Part shown: positions 5,461 through 33,092 of the stretch, piece by piece
How positions within the stretch are numbered: position 1 is the first letter of the stretch
Layout of the letters: every line of letters starts with the position of its first letter
Source: Streptomyces sp. Root431
GTDB lineage: Bacteria > Actinomycetota > Actinomycetes > Streptomycetales > Streptomycetaceae
DNA: 64,000 nt
Assembly: GCF_001426585.1 (NCBI RefSeq)
Contig: NZ_LMEI01000007.1
Span: 757,830-821,829, forward strand
Direction of reading: 5' to 3'
Position numbers and translations under genes: made by a program
Notes under the pieces: model-generated
What the model was told of the DNA's origin: nothing
The model's input: only the letters and a program-made list of their open reading frames with translations
Database searches by the model: none

Positions 5461-6051
5461 GTGCCCAGGATTCGAGCGGCCTCCGTGGCCGAGCACCGGA
5501 CGATGCAGCGAGGCGCCCTGCTGGACGCCGCGCGTTCCCTGCTGTCCGAGGGCGGTACGGAGGCGTTGACCTTCCCCGCACTCGCCGAGCGCACGGGCCT
5601 GGCCCGCTCCTCGGTGTACGAGTACTTCCGTTCGCGCGCGGCCGTCGTCGAAGAGCTCTGCGCCGTCGACTTCCCCGTCTGGGCCGCCGAGGTCGAGACC
5701 GCCATGGCCGGCGCCGATACGCCCGAGGGCAAGGTCGAGGCGTACGTCCGCACCCAGCTGGCCCTGGTCGGGGACCGACGCCACCGGGCGGTCGTCGCGA
5801 TCTCGGCGAGCGAACTCGACGACGGCGCCCGCGAGAAGATCCGCGCGGCCCACGGCGGCCTCGTCGCCATGATCGTCGAAGCCCTCGCCGCCCTGGGCCA
5901 GCCCGAGCCCCGCCTGGGCGCCATGCTCCTCCAGGGCGTCGTCGACGCGGCCGTCCGCCGCATCGAACTCGGCGCGGCGGAGGATCCCACGGCCATCGCG
6001 GAAGCAGCGGTCACCATGGCCCTCCACGGCGTGGCCGGCCCCCGCACCTGA
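5461..6051 (+). CDS. TetR family transcriptional regulator
   Basis: This 196-residue regulator has an N-terminal TetR HTH (about 18-62: MQRGALLDAARSLLSEGG, then FPALAERTGLARSSVYEYF) and a helical ligand-binding domain with no recognised ligand. The GTG at 5461 lies 30 bases after whiG. Downstream the M23 gene converges on it, with a hairpin between them. No operator palindrome was found next to it. Its target is unknown; the gene at this position is conserved beside whiG in streptomycetes. Confidence 0.88.
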   Translation: MPRIRAASVAEHRTMQRGALLDAARSLLSEGGTEALTFPALAERTGLARSSVYEYFRSRAAVVEELCAVDFPVWAAEVETAMAGADTPEGKVEAYVRTQLALVGDRRHRAVVAISASELDDGAREKIRAAHGGLVAMIVEALAALGQPEPRLGAMLLQGVVDAAVRRIELGAAEDPTAIAEAAVTMALHGVAGPRT

Positions 6052-26030: not shown

Positions 26031-26681
26031 ATGAACCTCGGTCTCGCTTCCGACACCCTGCTCTCCACCACCCGGGCCGTCCGCCACCGCCTCGACCTCA
26101 CCCGGCCCGTGCCCCGCGCGCTGCTGGAGGAGTGCGTGGACCTCGCCGTCCAGGCGCCCACCGGCCGCAACCGGCAGCGCTGGCACTTCGTGATCGTCAC
26201 CGACCCGGCCCGCCGGGCCGTCCTCGCCGATCTGTGGCGGGCCGCCCTCACCGCACCCGGCGCCCACCAGCCGCTGCCCGACCGGGACGTGCGCCGGGCG
26301 GAGGTCGCGCCCGGTGTGATGGACCGGGTCTACTCCGGCGTCGGGCATCTGCACCGGCACCTGCACGAGGTGCCCGCGTACGTCATCCCCTGCGTCGAAG
26401 GCCGCACGGAAGGCGCCACCGTCACCCATCAGGCCGGCACCTGGGGGTCGATCCTGCCCGCCGCCTGGAGCTTCATGCTGGCCGCCCGCGAGCGCGGGCT
26501 CGGCACGGTGTGGACGACGGGGAACCTGCCGATGGAGCGGGAGTTCGCGAGCTTCCTCGGCATCCCGTACGCGCACGTGATGCAGGCCGCCTTCATCCCC
26601 GTCGCGTACACGGTCGGCACCGACTTCCGGCCCGCCCGGCGGATCCCGCGCGAGGAGGTCCTCCACTGGGACGCGTGGTGA
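26031..26681 (+). CDS. Nitroreductase family protein
   Basis: This 216-residue FMN-dependent oxidoreductase has the family's N-terminal arginine segment (STTRAVRHRLDL), the substrate/FMN region LAVQAPTGRNRQRWHFVIV, and the C-terminal FMN loop MLAARERGLGTVWTTGNLPM. Members reduce nitroaromatics, quinones or flavins; the physiological substrate is not evident. It is divergent from the IclR gene and converges with the serine hydrolase gene (19-base gap). Confidence 0.87.
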   Translation: MNLGLASDTLLSTTRAVRHRLDLTRPVPRALLEECVDLAVQAPTGRNRQRWHFVIVTDPARRAVLADLWRAALTAPGAHQPLPDRDVRRAEVAPGVMDRVYSGVGHLHRHLHEVPAYVIPCVEGRTEGATVTHQAGTWGSILPAAWSFMLAARERGLGTVWTTGNLPMEREFASFLGIPYAHVMQAAFIPVAYTVGTDFRPARRIPREEVLHWDAW

Positions 26682-26699
26682 GCGCCGTGCACGCGGGGT

Positions 26700-27866
26700 T
26701 CAGTCCGGCAGGCCGTACGCCGCCACCATCAGGCCGAGGGCCGTCGGGTTCATGTCCTGGCCCTTGGCGTCGGTGGAGTTGACGCTGTAGACGAGGGTGC
26801 GGGCGCCGTCGCGGGTCGAGGCGATCGCACTGTTGTAGCCCCAGCGGCCGCCCGTCTTGCCCCAGACCTCGCGGCCGCCGAGCTTCTTCATCGACAGGCC
26901 GGCGGAGTACGCGGCCGGGTCGCCCGACTTCAGGTCCGGGACCTTCGGCAGGGTGAACATCTCCTCCAGGAGCGGGCCGCGGACCACGCCGCCCTTGAAC
27001 AGGACGCGGGTGAAGCGCTCCAGGTCGGCGGTGGTCGAGACGATGTCGCCGGCGGCCCAGCCGTCCGTCGTGCCCCACACGGAGACGTCCCGCAGGCCGG
27101 TCGTGCCGTCGTCGAGCCGCATCGTCTGGTAGCCGTGGTTGTACGGGCCGGTGATCTCGGCCGCCTCGCCGGGGAAGTACGTGTCCCGGAGGCCGAGCGG
27201 GCGCAGGATCCGGCGCTCCACCTGCCGCTCGTACGTGTCGCCCGTGACCCGCTCCACGAGCAGGCCGGCGATCGTGTACCCGATGTTGAGGTAGTGCTGC
27301 CGGGTGCCCGGACGGAACTCGCGCGGCTTCGCCGTCGCCGAGCGGACCATCGCCTCCGGGGTGTGGACGACGAAGCGGTTCGCGTACCACTCCTCGACCG
27401 TGTCGCCCGGGAAGTCGGGGGCCGGGATGCCGTGGGTGTGGTTCAGGAGCTGGCGGACGGTCACCCTGGCGTACCGGCCGGGGATCAGGTCCGGGAGGTA
27501 CGAGCGGGCCGGCCGGTCCAGGTCGATCCGGCCCTCGGCGGCGAGCTGGAGGACGGTCGCCGCCGTGAACACCTTCGTCACCGAACCGGCCCGGAAGCGG
27601 GCCGCCGGGTCCGCCGGGGAGCCGCTCTCCAGGTCGTGGACACCCGAACTCCCCTGCCAGGAACCCTCGGTGCCGCCGACCCGGACCAGTGCGGCCGTCG
27701 CGTCGGCGCGGGGGAGGCCCGCGATCACCGCCGACAGGTCGGGCGACGAGGCCTGCGAGGCGGCTGCCGCCGGCGGCGCCGCCGCGACGGCGGGGACGAC
27801 CGCCGGTCCCGCCGCCACTCCCAGGACCAGGGCGGCGGCGAGCAGCGTGCGGGTGGACTTCTTCAT
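26700..27866 (-). CDS. Secreted serine hydrolase (class C beta-lactamase/DD-peptidase fold)
   Basis: This 388-residue exported protein begins MKKSTRTLLAAALVLGVAAG, a clear signal peptide ending near residue 36. Catalytic motifs are SVTK (Ser95, Lys98), Y192-L-N194 and the KTG triad in WGKTGGRWG. This is the arrangement of streptomycete R61-type DD-carboxypeptidases and related esterases. GGGAG lies 8-12 bases before the ATG. It follows the two-component genes by about 95 bases on the same strand. A resistance role is possible but not indicated; a peptidoglycan or esterase role is more common. Confidence 0.88.
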   Translation of the reverse strand: MKKSTRTLLAAALVLGVAAGPAVVPAVAAAPPAAAASQASSPDLSAVIAGLPRADATAALVRVGGTEGSWQGSSGVHDLESGSPADPAARFRAGSVTKVFTAATVLQLAAEGRIDLDRPARSYLPDLIPGRYARVTVRQLLNHTHGIPAPDFPGDTVEEWYANRFVVHTPEAMVRSATAKPREFRPGTRQHYLNIGYTIAGLLVERVTGDTYERQVERRILRPLGLRDTYFPGEAAEITGPYNHGYQTMRLDDGTTGLRDVSVWGTTDGWAAGDIVSTTADLERFTRVLFKGGVVRGPLLEEMFTLPKVPDLKSGDPAAYSAGLSMKKLGGREVWGKTGGRWGYNSAIASTRDGARTLVYSVNSTDAKGQDMNPTALGLMVAAYGLPD

Positions 27867-27961
27867 GGTCAACTCCCGTGGTGTGAGCCGTTGTTCTCGA
27901 TGGCTCCATCCTGCTGACCAGCGGCGATCCACGGATCGCCCGCACCGGCGGTCTTGCGGGG

Positions 27962-28672
27962 TCAGTCCCTCGCCGACGCGGGGGAGGAGCCGGGGCCCGT
28001 GCCTCCCCCGGGCGGGGGAGCACCCGCCTCGACCAGGCCCGTCTCGTACGCGCAGATCACCGCCTGGATCCGGTCGCGCAGCCCCAGCTTCGCCAGCACG
28101 TTCCCCACATGGGTCTTCACCGTGTGGTCGCTCACCACCAGCTCCGCCGCGATCTCCGCGTTCGACAGGCCGCGCGCGAGCAGCAACAGCGTCTCCCGCT
28201 CCCGGCCGGTCAGGACGTCGAGCCGCGGGTCCGGGGCCGTCCTGCGGGGGCCGCCCGCCGTGTACTGCTCCACGAGACGCCGGGCCACGGACGGGGCGAG
28301 CAGCGACTCGCCCGCCGCCACGACCCGGACCGCGTGCACCAGGTCGTCCCTGCGCACGTCCTTGAGGAGGAAACCGCTCGCCCCCGCGTGCAGCGCCTCG
28401 TACACGTACGCGTCGGTGTCGAAGGTCGTCAGGATCACCGTCCGGCAGCTCGACTCCGCGCTGATCGTCCGGCAGGCCTCGATGCCGTCCGTCCGGGGCA
28501 TCCGGATGTCGAGCAGCGCCACGTCGGGCGCGAGCCGCCGCACCGCCTCGACCGCCTCCGTGCCGTCCCCGGCCTCCGCGACCACCTCGATGTCCGGCTG
28601 CGCGTCCAGGATCATCGCGAAGCCGCTGCGGACCAGCTCCTGGTCGTCGGCGACCACCACCCGGATCGTCAT
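27962..28672 (-). CDS. NarL/FixJ family response regulator
   Basis: This 236-residue regulator has a receiver domain with the acidic pair D9-D10, the phosphoacceptor D55 in VALLDIRMP and the conserved Lys near 105 (GFLLKDV). The C-terminal LuxR HTH is LTGRERETLLLLARGLSNAE, then VSDHTVKTHVGNVLAKLGL (about 150-205). ATG overlaps the kinase stop (ATGA), so the two are coupled partners. The tail is Gly/Pro-rich. Targets are unknown. Confidence 0.93.
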   Translation of the reverse strand: MTIRVVVADDQELVRSGFAMILDAQPDIEVVAEAGDGTEAVEAVRRLAPDVALLDIRMPRTDGIEACRTISAESSCRTVILTTFDTDAYVYEALHAGASGFLLKDVRRDDLVHAVRVVAAGESLLAPSVARRLVEQYTAGGPRRTAPDPRLDVLTGRERETLLLLARGLSNAEIAAELVVSDHTVKTHVGNVLAKLGLRDRIQAVICAYETGLVEAGAPPPGGGTGPGSSPASARD

Positions 28673-29841
28673 GCCCCCACCCCCTCCTCGGACGGTACGG
28701 GGAGCAGGACCCGCACCTCGAAGCCCCGGCCGCCGGGGCCCGGACCCAGCGCCGCCGTACCGCCGTGGGCGGCCGCCCGCTCCCGGATGCCGACCAGGCC
28801 GTGGCCGCCGACGCCCGCCTGCGGGCCACGCCCGTCGTCCGTCACCGTCACGCGCAACACGCCCTCCGCGTGAGCCAGTCGGACCTCGGCCGTGCGGGCG
28901 CGCGCGTGCTTGACCACGTTCGTCAAGGCCTCCTGGACGATCCGGTAGGCACTCGCGCCGGTCGCCGGGGGCAGGGCACGGACCCCGCCCTCCGTCGCGT
29001 AGGTGACGGTCAGGCCGCTGGCCCGGACCCGCTCGACCAGCTCCGGGATGCCCGACAGGTCGGGCTGCGGCTCGCGCGGGGCGGAGCCGCTCTCGGAGCC
29101 CTCGCGCAACACCCCGAGCATCTGACGTAGTTGGGCCATCGCGTCGCGGCCGGTCGCCGAGATCGCCTCGAAGGCGGCTTCCGCGCGCTCCGGGGCCGCC
29201 CGTACCGCCACCGGCCCCGCCTCCGCCTGCACGACCATCAGGCTCACCGCGTGCGACAGGATGTCGTGCATCTCCCGCGCGATCCGGGCCCGTTCGCGGG
29301 CGGCGGCCCGCTCGGCCTCGATCCGGTGCTCCCGCTGCCGCGCGTCCTGGAGCCGGCCGAAGACGTACGCCGCGCCGAACACGAAGAGGGAGAAGGTCAG
29401 TTCCCGCGCCGACTGGGTGTTGAGCCACACCGAGCCCGGCACCGCGACCACCATCAGGGCCGCCGTCGTCAGCCGCTTCCACGGCGGGGACAGCGCGGCG
29501 ATGGTGTAGACGGAGACGAGCCCGGTGTACGGCAGCGGCTGCCCCGGCCCCTCGACGGCCACCCTGTACAGGGCGCTCGCCGCGAGGATCGCGAGAAGGA
29601 CGGCGAGCGGGGCGCGCCGCCGCCAGACCAGCGGCAGCACGGTGAGCGTCGTCAGGCCGTACGCCGGCCAGGTCGCCGGCTCCAGCTCGGGCCCGCGCGG
29701 CACCACGAACGGCATCGTCATCGCCGCCTGCACGAGGAGCGCGATCCCGATGTCCACCGCCCACGGGTTCGCCGCGCCCCAGCGCCGCGCCCGCTCCCAG
29801 CCGCCGCGTACCGCCCCCGGTATCTCCCCCCGCCCCGCCAT
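28669..29841 (-). CDS. Sensor histidine kinase (DesK/NarX-type, HisKA_3)
   Basis: This 390-residue kinase has four to five N-terminal membrane helices (about 30-165) with short loops and no obvious extracellular domain. The phosphorylated histidine is His192 in EMHDILSHAVSLMVVQAEA. The ATPase region contains IVQEALTNVVKHA (N box) and VTVTDDGRG (G1), then GHGLVGIRERAAAHGG. ATG overlaps the TAA of the methyltransferase gene (TAATG) and TGA overlaps the regulator start. Thus four proteins from the phosphodiesterase onwards are translated as a coupled set. Confidence 0.92.
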   Translation of the reverse strand: MAGRGEIPGAVRGGWERARRWGAANPWAVDIGIALLVQAAMTMPFVVPRGPELEPATWPAYGLTTLTVLPLVWRRRAPLAVLLAILAASALYRVAVEGPGQPLPYTGLVSVYTIAALSPPWKRLTTAALMVVAVPGSVWLNTQSARELTFSLFVFGAAYVFGRLQDARQREHRIEAERAAARERARIAREMHDILSHAVSLMVVQAEAGPVAVRAAPERAEAAFEAISATGRDAMAQLRQMLGVLREGSESGSAPREPQPDLSGIPELVERVRASGLTVTYATEGGVRALPPATGASAYRIVQEALTNVVKHARARTAEVRLAHAEGVLRVTVTDDGRGPQAGVGGHGLVGIRERAAAHGGTAALGPGPGGRGFEVRVLLPVPSEEGVGA

Positions 29842-30620
29842 TACGGCTTGCGGCCCACCGCGCCGAACTGCGCGACCACGGCGGCCTCTTCGGAGCGCCA
29901 GCGCCCGCAGGACACGATGCCCGGCTCCAGCAGGTCGAGCCCGTCGAGGAAGGAGGCGAACTCGGCCCGGCTGCGGGCGGTGATCGGCGGGGTCGCGTTC
30001 TCGTTCCAGAACGCCATGGCGGCCTTGTTGCCCTCGCCGCCGAGCTCCGGCTCCAGCGTCGGGTGGGTCAGGACCAGGTAGCTGCCGGAGGGGACGGCGT
30101 CCATCAGGGTCCGCACGATCGACCGGGCCTCGCCGGTGTCCAGGACGAAGTTGAGGATGCCGAGCATCAGCACCGCGACCGGGCGGGACAGGTCGAGCGT
30201 CGCGCCCGCGGCCGCCAGGATCTTCTCCGGGTCCTGCGCGTCCGCGTCGACGTACTCGGTGACCCCCTCCGGCGCGCTGGTCAGGAGCGCCCGGGCGTGG
30301 GTGAGGACGATCGGGTCGTTGTCGACGTAGACGATCCGCGAGTCGGCGGCGACCCGCTGCGCGACCTCGTGGGTGTTGTCCGCGGTCGGCAGGCCCGTAC
30401 CGATGTCGAGGAACTGGCGCACGCCCGCGTCGGCGGCCAGATGCGTCACCGCCCGGCCGAGGAACGCCCGGTCCGCGCGGGCCACTTCGCCGATGCTCGG
30501 GTAGAAGGCGGTGACCTGGTCGCCGACCGCACGGTCCACCGGGTAGTTGTCCTTGCCGCCCAGCCAGTAGTTCCACACGCGGGCGTTGTGGGCGATGTCG
30601 GTGCGGATGCGGTCGTTCAT
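29841..30620 (-). CDS. SAM-dependent methyltransferase, DUF574 (PF04672) family
   Basis: This 259-residue protein starts MNDRIRTDIAHNARVWNYWL, the hallmark of the DUF574 family that is greatly expanded in streptomycetes. The SAM-binding motif I is FLDIGTGLPTADNTHEVAQ, and IVYVDNDPIVLTHARALL is motif II. The natural substrate is unknown for the family. It is coupled on both sides: its ATG overlaps the phosphodiesterase stop (ATGA) and its TAA overlaps the kinase ATG. Confidence 0.9.
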   Translation of the reverse strand: MNDRIRTDIAHNARVWNYWLGGKDNYPVDRAVGDQVTAFYPSIGEVARADRAFLGRAVTHLAADAGVRQFLDIGTGLPTADNTHEVAQRVAADSRIVYVDNDPIVLTHARALLTSAPEGVTEYVDADAQDPEKILAAAGATLDLSRPVAVLMLGILNFVLDTGEARSIVRTLMDAVPSGSYLVLTHPTLEPELGGEGNKAAMAFWNENATPPITARSRAEFASFLDGLDLLEPGIVSCGRWRSEEAAVVAQFGAVGRKP

Positions 30621-31306
30621 GCGCGAGCCTTTCGCAGGACGGCGGCGAGTGCGTCGACCCGGTTCGTGGTGATCGAGTCGACCCCGTTGAAGATCAGCTT
30701 ACGCATGGTGCGGGTGGTGTCCGCCGTCCAGGCCGAGACGAGCAGACCGTCCCGGTGCACCCGCTCCGTCAGCTCCCGACTCACCAGACCGAAGCGGTAG
30801 TTGAGCCACTTCGGCCGCACCGCGTCGAGCAGCACCCGCCGGGGCGGGGCGAGCGACGTCCAGGTCAGGGCGATCTCTGCGGCCGGGTCGGCGGCCCGCA
30901 CCTGGAGCATGGCCACGGACCCCGCGCAGTAGTACACGCGCTCCCCGGCGCCGCACTCCCGGACCGTGCCGACGATCTTGCGGACCGAGTCCTCGTTCCC
31001 GCCGGGCAGGTCCAGCATCAGCCGGTGCGCCCCCGCGGTGATCAGCGCCTCGCGCAGGGTCGGCACGCCGTCGTACGTCAGCTCGCGCAACTGCTCGTAC
31101 GAGAGCCGGGACAGCGGCCGGTCGTGGCCCCACAGCCGCTTGAGGGTGTCGTCGTGGAGGAGGACGGGCACGCCGTCCTTCGTGAGCCGGACGTCGACCT
31201 CGACCGCGTCCGCCCCCCGCTCGATCGCCGAGGCGATCGAGGAGAGCGTGTTCTCACGGACGCGGTACGGGTCGCCGCGATGACCTACGACAGTGACAGG
31301 GCGCAT
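30617..31306 (-). CDS. Glycerophosphodiester phosphodiesterase
   Basis: This 229-residue GDPD-family protein hydrolyses glycerophosphodiesters. The catalytic TIM-barrel motif begins at VVGHRGDPYRVRENTLSSI (His plus Glu-Asn), followed by GADAVEVDVRLTKDGVPVLL and HDDTL (metal ligands Glu, Asp and the second catalytic His). LPGGNEDSVRKI and GVDSITTNRVDAL are later barrel strands. No signal peptide is seen, so it is cytoplasmic. ATG at 31306 lies 20 bases after the adenosine deaminase stop; its own stop overlaps the methyltransferase start. Confidence 0.9.
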   Translation of the reverse strand: MRPVTVVGHRGDPYRVRENTLSSIASAIERGADAVEVDVRLTKDGVPVLLHDDTLKRLWGHDRPLSRLSYEQLRELTYDGVPTLREALITAGAHRLMLDLPGGNEDSVRKIVGTVRECGAGERVYYCAGSVAMLQVRAADPAAEIALTWTSLAPPRRVLLDAVRPKWLNYRFGLVSRELTERVHRDGLLVSAWTADTTRTMRKLIFNGVDSITTNRVDALAAVLRKARA

Positions 31307-31325
31307 GGCCCCATTCTCACCGCCG

Positions 31326-32357
31326 TCAGCGAGCCAGCCAGCCGTCCGTGTACGTGTCGATCTCGGCGGCGATCCGCGCCTTGCCGGCCGCGTCGAGGAA
31401 GGAGGCCTCCACCGCGTTCTTCGCGAGGGCGGCGACACCGCGCTCGTCGAGGCCGAGGAGCCGGGCGGCGACCGCGTACTCGTTGTTGAGGTCCGTGCCG
31501 AACATCGGCGGGTCGTCGCTGTTGACCGTCACGAGGACCCCGGCGTCCACCATCTGCCGGATCGGGTGCTCGTCGAGCGTGGCGACGGCCCGCGTGGCGA
31601 TGTTGGAGGTCGGGCAGACCTCCAGGGCGATGCGCTGCTCCGCCAGATGGGCCAGGAGCGCCGGGTCCCGGACCGAGCTGGTGCCGTGGCCGATGCGCTC
31701 GGCGCCCAGGTCGTTGATCGCGTCCCAGATCGTCTCCGGGCCGGTCGTCTCGCCCGCGTGCGGGACGGAGCGCAGACCGGCGGCGCGCGCCAGGTCGAAG
31801 TACGGCTTGAACTGCGGGCGCGGGACCCCGACCTCGGGGCCGCCGAGACCGAAGGAGACCAGGCCCTCGGGGCGGATCCCGTCGGTCGTGGCGAGCCGCA
31901 CGGTCTCCTCGGCCGAGACGAGGCCGGCCTCGCCGGGGATGTCGAAGCACCAGCGCAGGATCGTGCCGAACTCGGCCTCGGCCGACTTGCGGGCGTCCTC
32001 GATGGCCGCCATGAAGGCGCGCTCGTCGATCCCGCGGCGGGTGGAGGAGTACGGGGTGATGGTCAGCTCGGCGTACCGGATGTTCTGCCGGGCCATGTCC
32101 CGGGCGACCTCGAAGGTCAGCAGCCGGACGTCCTCGGGGGTGCGGACCAGGTCGACGACCGACAGGTAGACGTCGATGAAGTGCGCGAAGTCCGTGAACG
32201 TGAAGTAGTCGGTCAGGGCCTCGGGGTCCGTGGGGACCTTGGAGTCCGGGTGGCGGGCCGCGAGCTCGGCGACGATGCGCGGCGAGGCGGAGCCGACGTG
32301 GTGGACGTGCAGCTCGGCCTTGGGCAGGCCCGCGATGAAGGGATGGAGATCGGTCAT
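31326..32357 (-). CDS. add: Adenosine deaminase
   Basis: This 343-residue amidohydrolase converts adenosine to inosine. The zinc site is His17-x-His19 in LPKAELHVHHVGS (usually HLHLDG), with VPHAGETTG, ERIGHGTSS and TVNSDDPPMFGTDL supplying the remaining His, Glu and Asp residues. The HVHHVGS variant is, from memory, usual in one streptomycete subgroup, so adenosine specificity is likely but not certain. ATG at 32357 is chosen because the longer frame upstream is antisense. It heads a leftward run of five genes. Confidence 0.87.
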   Translation of the reverse strand: MTDLHPFIAGLPKAELHVHHVGSASPRIVAELAARHPDSKVPTDPEALTDYFTFTDFAHFIDVYLSVVDLVRTPEDVRLLTFEVARDMARQNIRYAELTITPYSSTRRGIDERAFMAAIEDARKSAEAEFGTILRWCFDIPGEAGLVSAEETVRLATTDGIRPEGLVSFGLGGPEVGVPRPQFKPYFDLARAAGLRSVPHAGETTGPETIWDAINDLGAERIGHGTSSVRDPALLAHLAEQRIALEVCPTSNIATRAVATLDEHPIRQMVDAGVLVTVNSDDPPMFGTDLNNEYAVAARLLGLDERGVAALAKNAVEASFLDAAGKARIAAEIDTYTDGWLAR

Positions 32358-32432
32358 CGGGTCATCGTAGGCCGGGCGGTTCCCCCTCAGGGGTGAGGTC
32401 GTAACATGGCGTGACCACGATGGGGGAGGCCC

Positions 32433-33092
32433 ATGTCTGACAACCGAGACCAGCCGCAGGGCGGGTACGACCCGGCGGACCCGTGGGCTCCGCCGAACCG
32501 TGACGGGGTGGAACTGAGCAAGCCGACGCCGCCGCCGGTGCACGACCAGCAGACCGTCACGTCCATGCCGGCCGCGAGTGACGTCCCGCCGCCCCCGGTC
32601 GCCCCCGGCGGCCCGGCGGCCACGCCCGGCTACGGCTACCCGGCGGCCACGCCGCCCGCCGGCGCCTACGGCTACCCCGCGGCCACGCCGCCCGCCGTGA
32701 CGCCTCCGACGGCGTCGGGGTACGCGTACCCCTCCTACGGCGCGGGTTACGGGCAGCCGCCCGGCTGGCAGCAGCCGTCCAACGGCATGGGCATCGCATC
32801 GATGGTGCTCGGCATCGTCGCGGTGGTCGGCTTCTGCCTGTACGGCCTCAACATCATCCTCGGCATCCTGGCGCTGATCTTCGGCATCATCGGCCTCAAG
32901 AAGGCCGGCCGGGGCGAGGCGACCAACCGGGGCATGGCGCTCGCGGGCGTCATCCTCGGCTCCGTCGGCATCGTCGTCGGCTCCGTCATCCTGGGCCTCA
33001 TCATCTGGGCCGCCACCCAGGACGCCTCGTACGAGGAGGGCAGCGACGACCCGTTCGCGTCGGTCCTGCAGATCGAGCGCGACGGCCGCTGA
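32433..33092 (+). CDS. DUF4190 membrane protein with Pro-rich repeat region
   Basis: This 219-residue protein has a disordered N-terminal half rich in Pro, Tyr and Gly with repeated GYPAATPP units (about 70-90). It is followed by the DUF4190 double helix (GMGIASMVLGIVAVVGFCLY, then LGILALIFGIIGLKKAGRG, NRGMALAGVILGSVGIVVGS). The function of DUF4190 proteins is unknown. It is divergent from add (75-base gap) and followed by a strong terminator. GGGGGAGG lies before the ATG. Confidence 0.88.
   Translation: MSDNRDQPQGGYDPADPWAPPNRDGVELSKPTPPPVHDQQTVTSMPAASDVPPPPVAPGGPAATPGYGYPAATPPAGAYGYPAATPPAVTPPTASGYAYPSYGAGYGQPPGWQQPSNGMGIASMVLGIVAVVGFCLYGLNIILGILALIFGIIGLKKAGRGEATNRGMALAGVILGSVGIVVGSVILGLIIWAATQDASYEEGSDDPFASVLQIERDGR

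Follow-up and report, generated by a model that had tools for sequence, protein, structure and literature searches.

A conserved element between a response regulator gene and a serine hydrolase gene in Streptomyces, and the changing company of the adjoining kinase

Introduction

When successive bacterial genes overlap by a few bases, does the packing identify the genes that function together, or merely those that are read together? The question is raised by a run of six genes on the minus strand of a 64,000-nucleotide stretch of Streptomyces sp. Root431 DNA (assembly GCF_001426585.1, contig NZ_LMEI01000007.1, positions 757,830 to 821,829; 72% G+C), referred to below as the window and numbered from its first letter. 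In minus-strand order the genes encode adenosine deaminase (ADA), a PF03009 phosphodiesterase (GDPD), a DUF574 methyltransferase (MT), a histidine kinase (HK), a response regulator (RR) and a serine hydrolase (SH). The original prediction, confined to 27962-31306, had GDPD, MT, HK and RR as one functional unit in which the two enzymes feed or modulate a two-component system (TCS). Its boundary at RR left outside both SH, which is the gene that follows HK-RR, and a control element at 27904-27955. The arrangement that we consider fairly probable is a different one, in which HK-RR-SH is the core, RR would switch on SH via the element, and GDPD and MT would give HK a transcript and translational coupling.

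The conserved element between RR and SH

The start of SH (26700-27866, minus strand as for all the genes here) is 95 bp downstream of RR (27962-28672), and the element occupies much of this space, ending 37 bases upstream of the SH start codon. It comprises an imperfect dyad, GACCGCC-N6-GGCGATC (27934-27953), and a -10-like CAGGAT (27908-27913). A 52-column matrix derived from sites upstream of SH, with the window's own site left out and close relatives included, scores 61.2 bits at 27904-27955, and no other site in the 64-kb window exceeds 5 bits. A matrix made without one clade still places that clade's site at the top of about 14,600 positions in nine of ten loci and third in the remaining one (L146). 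Among further loci it is the best site and directly after RR in all 24 that have RR (lowest score 27.7), or 22 of 22 on excluding L235 and L250, whose DNA was in the training set; two further loci without RR score -10 and -13.8. Across L144-L203 no full-element site above 8 bits was found except before SH. In the window's own genome, which is 79% complete, a 47-base pattern written from the window's own site has one exact match, the next best having 3 mismatches, and the control pattern gives one match at up to 3 mismatches.

Conservation of the element differs between loci with and without RR. Of 53 distinct RR-bearing loci 51 could be anchored, and L043 and L181 also show the element; the A of the left half is kept in 49 of the 51 anchored sites and GG(C/T/G)GATC in 50. 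Where SH occurs without RR, 17 of 21 loci could be anchored, and the corresponding figures are 4 and 0 of 17. The RR stop codon falls within the element in some relatives, so that the element is kept whether coding or not. An additional feature, limited to a subset of the closest relatives, is a perfect palindrome, GGCGATCC-GT-GGATCGCC, at 27923-27940 on the minus strand, where it overlaps the right half of the element.

Scans of 26600-32700 for promoters gave none, with no sigma-70-type match and no visible -35 consensus, and the terminator scan of the same interval gave one terminator-like site, on the opposite strand, against 0.9 expected. A conserved RR site was also sought upstream of HK in 10 cassettes that have relocated (see below), and the sole outcome was a stretch of weak conservation close to the start of HK.

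A related kinase-regulator pair beside another output gene

A more distant pair bears on whether the element belongs to RR or to SH. Ten loci were retrieved (L262-L271) with a kinase about 42-49% and an RR 67-75% identical to those of the window. In eight of them (L262, L263, L264, L266-L269 and L271) an MMPL transporter gene comes after the pair, the assignment being by Pfam for four and by similarity for all eight, with the L264 copy broken. In all eight loci, the best site of the whole locus is 32-43 bp before the MMPL gene. Scored by itself, the dyad part is the top hit in the 700 bp following RR in eight of the ten; in L265 it is weak (4.6 bits) and there is no MMPL gene, and in L263 the site is farther off, again before MMPL. 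The same element thus stands before MMPL beside a related RR, which argues that it goes with RR and not with SH.

Genomic neighbours of the kinase

For 150 Streptomyces genomes searched with five of the proteins, adjacency was computed, absences being relative to E-value limits of 1e-60 for HK, 1e-55 for GDPD and 1e-90 for SH; for MT the best 150 matches across the 150 genomes were taken, and each was examined for proximity to GDPD and HK. GDPD is retained in 137 genomes and is adjacent to ADA in 135. With MT counted where among the matches listed, it is behind GDPD in 29 genomes, in 15 of them without HK, and HK (with RR) is behind GDPD in 28, equally divided between 14 with MT and 14 without. 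SH is behind HK-RR in all 28, in 26 by coordinates; in G002 and G021 it is below the survey cut-off, yet present at the loci, with 49% and 48% identity. Regular adjacency of GDPD, DUF574, HK and RR across relatives, as expected of a conserved operon, is not seen: the four are together in 14 of 150 genomes. Since rare adjacency elsewhere was what the original prediction itself named as counting against it, it fails genus-wide, but not in the window's own clade.

HK is near SH but not behind GDPD in 12 more genomes by adjacency and, by locus inspection, in G035. HK-RR-SH lacks an adjacent GDPD or MT in L171-L174 and L176-L183, and also in 8 of 26 further loci. In these 26, HK is preceded by MT behind GDPD in 11, by GDPD in 6 and by an MT remnant in 1, the 8 just mentioned having neither within the flank; in one (L242) an opposing gene lies between GDPD and HK. 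Of these loci 22 have all of HK-RR-SH, two break off before SH and one after HK, and L253 is without RR. Repeat DNA is involved in four cases, L253, L235, L250 and L248 being the same as L034, L045, L044 and L060, respectively. The 26 come from a wider family sample of 297 genomes, in which a strong HK match is present in 34, confined to 2 of 17 genera. A search for plasmid carriage of HK among 72,556 records yielded one distant kinase, of 45% identity.

A relative of SH is within 9 kb of GDPD, with no HK between, in 32 genomes. A kinase relative elsewhere in the genome is commoner where such an RR-less SH is present (15 of 32 versus 8 of 78, uncorrected for kinship).

DUF574 as a habitual kinase partner was considered and rejected: of 48 MT relatives outside the locus, none has a same-strand HK of the window type within 2 kb. 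Neighbour clustering covered 46 of the 48 (L080 and L107 dropped out), and in 25 of these 46 DUF574 genes outside the locus (L069-L113) the same large gene is downstream. On a reading of its translation it appears glutamine-synthetase-like, and it is followed by what look like amidohydrolase-like and NUDIX-like genes.

Gene trees, relocation and decay

The trees available are quick searches without bootstrap, and many forks are open. In that of ADA+GDPD, the 97 rows divide into 29 with MT+HK+SH, 18 with MT only, 18 with SH only, 15 with none of the three, 14 with HK+SH, 2 with MT+HK and 1 with MT+SH. The two MT+HK rows are L055, where HK and SH persist as fragments, and L060, which stops at a contig end. 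Independent pairs drawn on this tree associate HK with SH: on average 6.8 of 8 pairs show the two changing in the same direction and 0 show opposite change (median p 0.016). For HK and MT 0.8 pairs change the same way, 0.5 oppositely and 6.7 are uninformative (p 1), which, with most pairs uninformative, is an absence of signal and no proof of independence. A fixed GDPD-MT-HK unit was accordingly rejected, the grounds being the adjacency counts, this tree test and the occurrence of HK-RR-SH with neither gene; the same grounds tell against the functional joining of MT and GDPD to the TCS in the original prediction.

In the HK+RR tree, 10 of 12 relocated cassettes form one supported clade, which sits with L044 and L175 among the locus-bound group and fits joint movement of HK, RR and SH. 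A genome from a different genus (L252/L257) retains no more of MT than its C-terminal part, directly before a complete HK-RR-SH. A search of 23 loci for leftovers of MT or GDPD ahead of relocated HK genes gave one GDPD fragment, at chance level. One genome has ADA and HK-RR-SH on one contig and GDPD-MT on another (L175 and L008); either a move of GDPD-MT or a split in the assembly could account for this. Decay is also on record: the HK-to-SH region is deleted or degraded in L034, L055 and L066, and in these three as in L253 (the same DNA as L034) RR is gone together with parts of HK and SH, fragments remaining behind MT.

Overlaps at the junctions

The overlaps themselves are just as first described, ATGA for GDPD/MT, TAATG for MT/HK and ATGA for HK/RR, i.e. 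1-4 bases, and the space between ADA and GDPD is 19 bases. They are also far above the local background: an overlap of -4 or -1 is possible in 92 of 674 (13.6%) other codirectional pairs up to 700 bp apart in the same loci, the junction counts using starts that outside the window come from a GC-based gene caller and including three species counted twice. Among relatives such an overlap is possible for HK/RR in 52 of 56, for MT/HK in 26 of 31 and for GDPD/MT in 23 of 45, and where MT is absent GDPD itself usually overlaps HK (13 of 15 loci). For ADA/GDPD it is possible in only 5 of 78, and for RR/SH it is rare (3 of 55), the near-absence there being because the control element occupies the junction. 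All three overlaps at once are possible in 16 of 31 loci in which MT adjoins HK, or 14 loci after dropping the duplicates L145 (= L035) and L170 (= L040); 12 of these belong, on the ADA+GDPD tree, to the 19-row clade that includes the window, and the remaining two are L048 and L052.

With the overlap kept whether GDPD or MT is before HK, HK appears coupled to whichever gene precedes it. A start-stop overlap can therefore persist while its partner gene changes, and, since the partner before HK varies, overlap alone is weak evidence of shared function.

The proteins

HK (28669-29841; 390 aa; DUF7134, HisKA_3 and HATPase_c) is a HisKA_3 kinase of DesK/NarX type, with 61.9 bits for HisKA_3 (cut-off 24) and 39.8 for HATPase_c (cut-off 26.4). 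His192, in the HisKA_3 helix, N308 and the DDG at 335-337 are invariant in 23 sequences. The catalytic half is closest to DesK in both sequence and fold, the fold search having matched residues 166-384 only. In the predicted model (mean pLDDT 83, pTM 0.51), about six helices in residues 9-141 precede the long helix with His192, with no external domain; HK is probably membrane-embedded, the number of passes being a reading of the model. Sensing in the membrane, in line with the original suggestion that a kinase lacking an obvious external sensor may respond to membrane or lipid state, is plausible, given the absence of an extracytoplasmic domain from the model and the DesK-like catalytic part. 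In the membrane domain (DUF7134) of 23 relatives the motifs PFVVPR and PGQPLPY are near-invariant, and their conservation makes a ligand or lipid site possible. Comparison with named NCBIfam kinases (MctS, MadS, LiaS, MacS) listed seven families, all far below cut-off, e.g. MadS at 63.8 (cut-off 500) and MacS at 30.6 (cut-off 300).

RR (236 aa) has a receiver (Response_reg 93.6 bits) and a GerE/LuxR helix-turn-helix (63.4 bits), and is thus of NarL/FixJ type. Against NCBIfam regulators (MadR, NarL, MctR etc.; best 25 of 92 families) none reaches cut-off, the best being MadR at 155.7 (cut-off 300).

SH (388 aa) is a PF00144 / peptidase S12-type protein (205.3 bits, cut-off 27) with one N-terminal hydrophobic segment, at 9-27, and is the proposed output, presumably secreted. 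Its translation carries SVTK, YLN and KTG, which we take to be the family motifs SxxK, YxN and (H/K)TG. Its best PDB relatives are the alkaline D-peptidase 4y7p, the S12 peptidase 3wwx and the D-Ala-D-Ala carboxypeptidases 9s7k and 1cef. Beta-lactamase, esterase and D-peptidase are among the activities of PF00144, and, by family resemblance, SH could act on a D-amino-acid peptide bond, or a similar ester or amide, in the wall.

MT (29841-30620; 259 aa), an optional insert between GDPD and HK, is a PF04672 S-adenosyl methyltransferase (330.2 bits, cut-off 26) with 3giw (E 5.7e-70) and 3go4 as relatives. GDPD (30617-31306; 229 aa) is a complete PF03009 protein (136.6 bits, cut-off 23.6; relative 2pz0), predicted to be a cytosolic glycerophosphodiester phosphodiesterase as it has no hydrophobic segment; its HRGD, EVDV and LLHDD presumably correspond to the HR...E.D...H active-site pattern. 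ADA (31326-32357; PF00962 388 bits; NF006854 664.8 bits, cut-off 530) heads the run, its start being that of the GC-based caller and not fixed.

Proposed scheme and alternatives

The steps would be as follows. HK, of DesK type and with a helical membrane domain, would detect a membrane or envelope signal and, to judge from its family, phosphorylate the NarL-type RR. RR would bind the conserved dyad just behind its own gene, at the -35 region of a promoter with CAGGAT as -10, and so activate SH, which, once exported, would cleave a D-amino-acid peptide bond, or a comparable ester or amide, in the wall. GDPD and, in one lineage, MT would supply the transcript of HK, started at ADA or GDPD, and through the junctions described its translational coupling. 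The findings lend no support to a direct biochemical part in signalling for GDPD or MT; both may be biologically relevant, though nothing in this analysis links them to the signal.

Several findings sit awkwardly with this scheme. RR-less SH genes, those of L184-L202 included, retain a GATCC...AGGATG core, so part of the element may be plain promoter, and an unanchored RR-less locus, L187, reads GGTGATCC. Kinship confounds the comparison of RR-bearing with RR-less sites. The dyad alone has 120 genome-wide matches at up to 2 mismatches versus 37 for the reversed pattern, and on such matches a regulon is not separable from background, other targets being neither ruled in nor out. In L270 the element (5910-5961, minus strand, 35 bits) is before the gene upstream of HK-RR and not after RR, a placement that would suggest autoregulation in that branch. 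Finally, retention of the MT/HK overlap is not strongly predicted by a purely accidental insertion of MT.

Among other ways of reading the locus, repression of SH by RR, with the dyad as an operator blocking the promoter, is unlikely; overlap of the site with the presumed -35 region fits either sign, but the lack of a visible -35 consensus and of any sigma-70-type match fits an activator-dependent promoter. It is decidedly improbable that the locus is no more than a packed housekeeping neighbourhood, with an ordinary SH promoter as the element and HK-RR regulating unrelated genes. The ADA-GDPD adjacency in 135 of 150 genomes and the core retained before RR-less SH genes are as this would have it, but the dyad half is not kept intact in loci lacking RR, the dyad recurs before the unrelated MMPL gene beside a related RR, and HK-RR-SH stay together after leaving the locus. 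We give very little credence to the notion that lipids or glycerophosphodiesters are the substrates of GDPD and MT, whose action would make or modulate the HK signal, the four genes being one lipid-sensing unit. Its attraction is in the overlaps joining GDPD, MT, HK and RR, kept for MT/HK in 26 of 31 and for GDPD/HK in 13 of 15, and in a kinase that is DesK-like and apparently membrane-embedded; yet MT occurs without HK and HK without MT, no association of the two is detected on the tree (with few informative pairs), HK-RR-SH is found with neither GDPD nor MT beside it, and GDPD is in 137 genomes against 28 with HK behind it.

If RR does activate SH through the element, the four-gene guess of lipid signalling gives way to a testable sensor, site and output, and the element would serve directly as a reporter in tracing what a membrane-embedded kinase of Streptomyces responds to. 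For specialists the most interesting aspect is perhaps that the output gene is exchanged while the site stays the same. More tentatively, and with doubt slightly outweighing confidence, such HK-RR pairs may constitute a portable Streptomyces control family having its operator directly behind RR and varied envelope genes under it (in one branch a secreted hydrolase resembling D-peptidases, in another an MMPL exporter), the cassette moving between chromosomal sites with output gene and site and plugging into an upstream gene by start-stop overlap.

Comparison with known systems

A TCS adjoining its own target gene is a common arrangement. In the open-access literature searched, nothing was found that joins a Streptomyces TCS with a serine hydrolase, or GDPD with ADA. 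DesK-DesR of Bacillus subtilis, where the DesR target is a desaturase gene, resembles the window pair in the catalytic part of the kinase, in a short-looped membrane domain with no external domain and in a NarL-type partner. Unlike it, the neighbouring presumed target in the window is a secreted hydrolase gene and not a desaturase gene, and the HK likeness covers the catalytic part. On the output side, SH aligns over most of its length with the alkaline D-peptidase 4y7p and the R61-type DD-peptidase 1cef, SxxK, YxN and KTG being common to them.

We know of no hydrolase link for GarS/GarR of Streptomyces coelicolor. The external part of the kinase GarS is described as too short, with sensing likely through the membrane segments (PMC11043171). 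HK is likened to GarS by this description. In Mycobacterium smegmatis a system annotated as PrrAB is near MmpL genes and is unrelated to the window pair (PMC7516205). The DUF574 structure 3giw, which with 3go4 is matched by MT over its full length, has a SAM-dependent methyltransferase fold with an unidentified phenylalanine-like ligand; the part of its description relevant here assigns the family no function and mentions no link to a TCS (PMC2954221). A parallel in logic is CwaRS-LdcA of Lactobacillus paracasei, where a TCS reported to be functional on biochemical grounds is encoded with its own cell-wall carboxypeptidase (PMC7062640). In the window too a TCS adjoins a gene for a peptidase-like enzyme, but in L. 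paracasei the order within what is given as one operon is regulator-kinase-enzyme (PMC7062640), whereas in the window the kinase is of DesK type and SH has its own conserved site behind RR.

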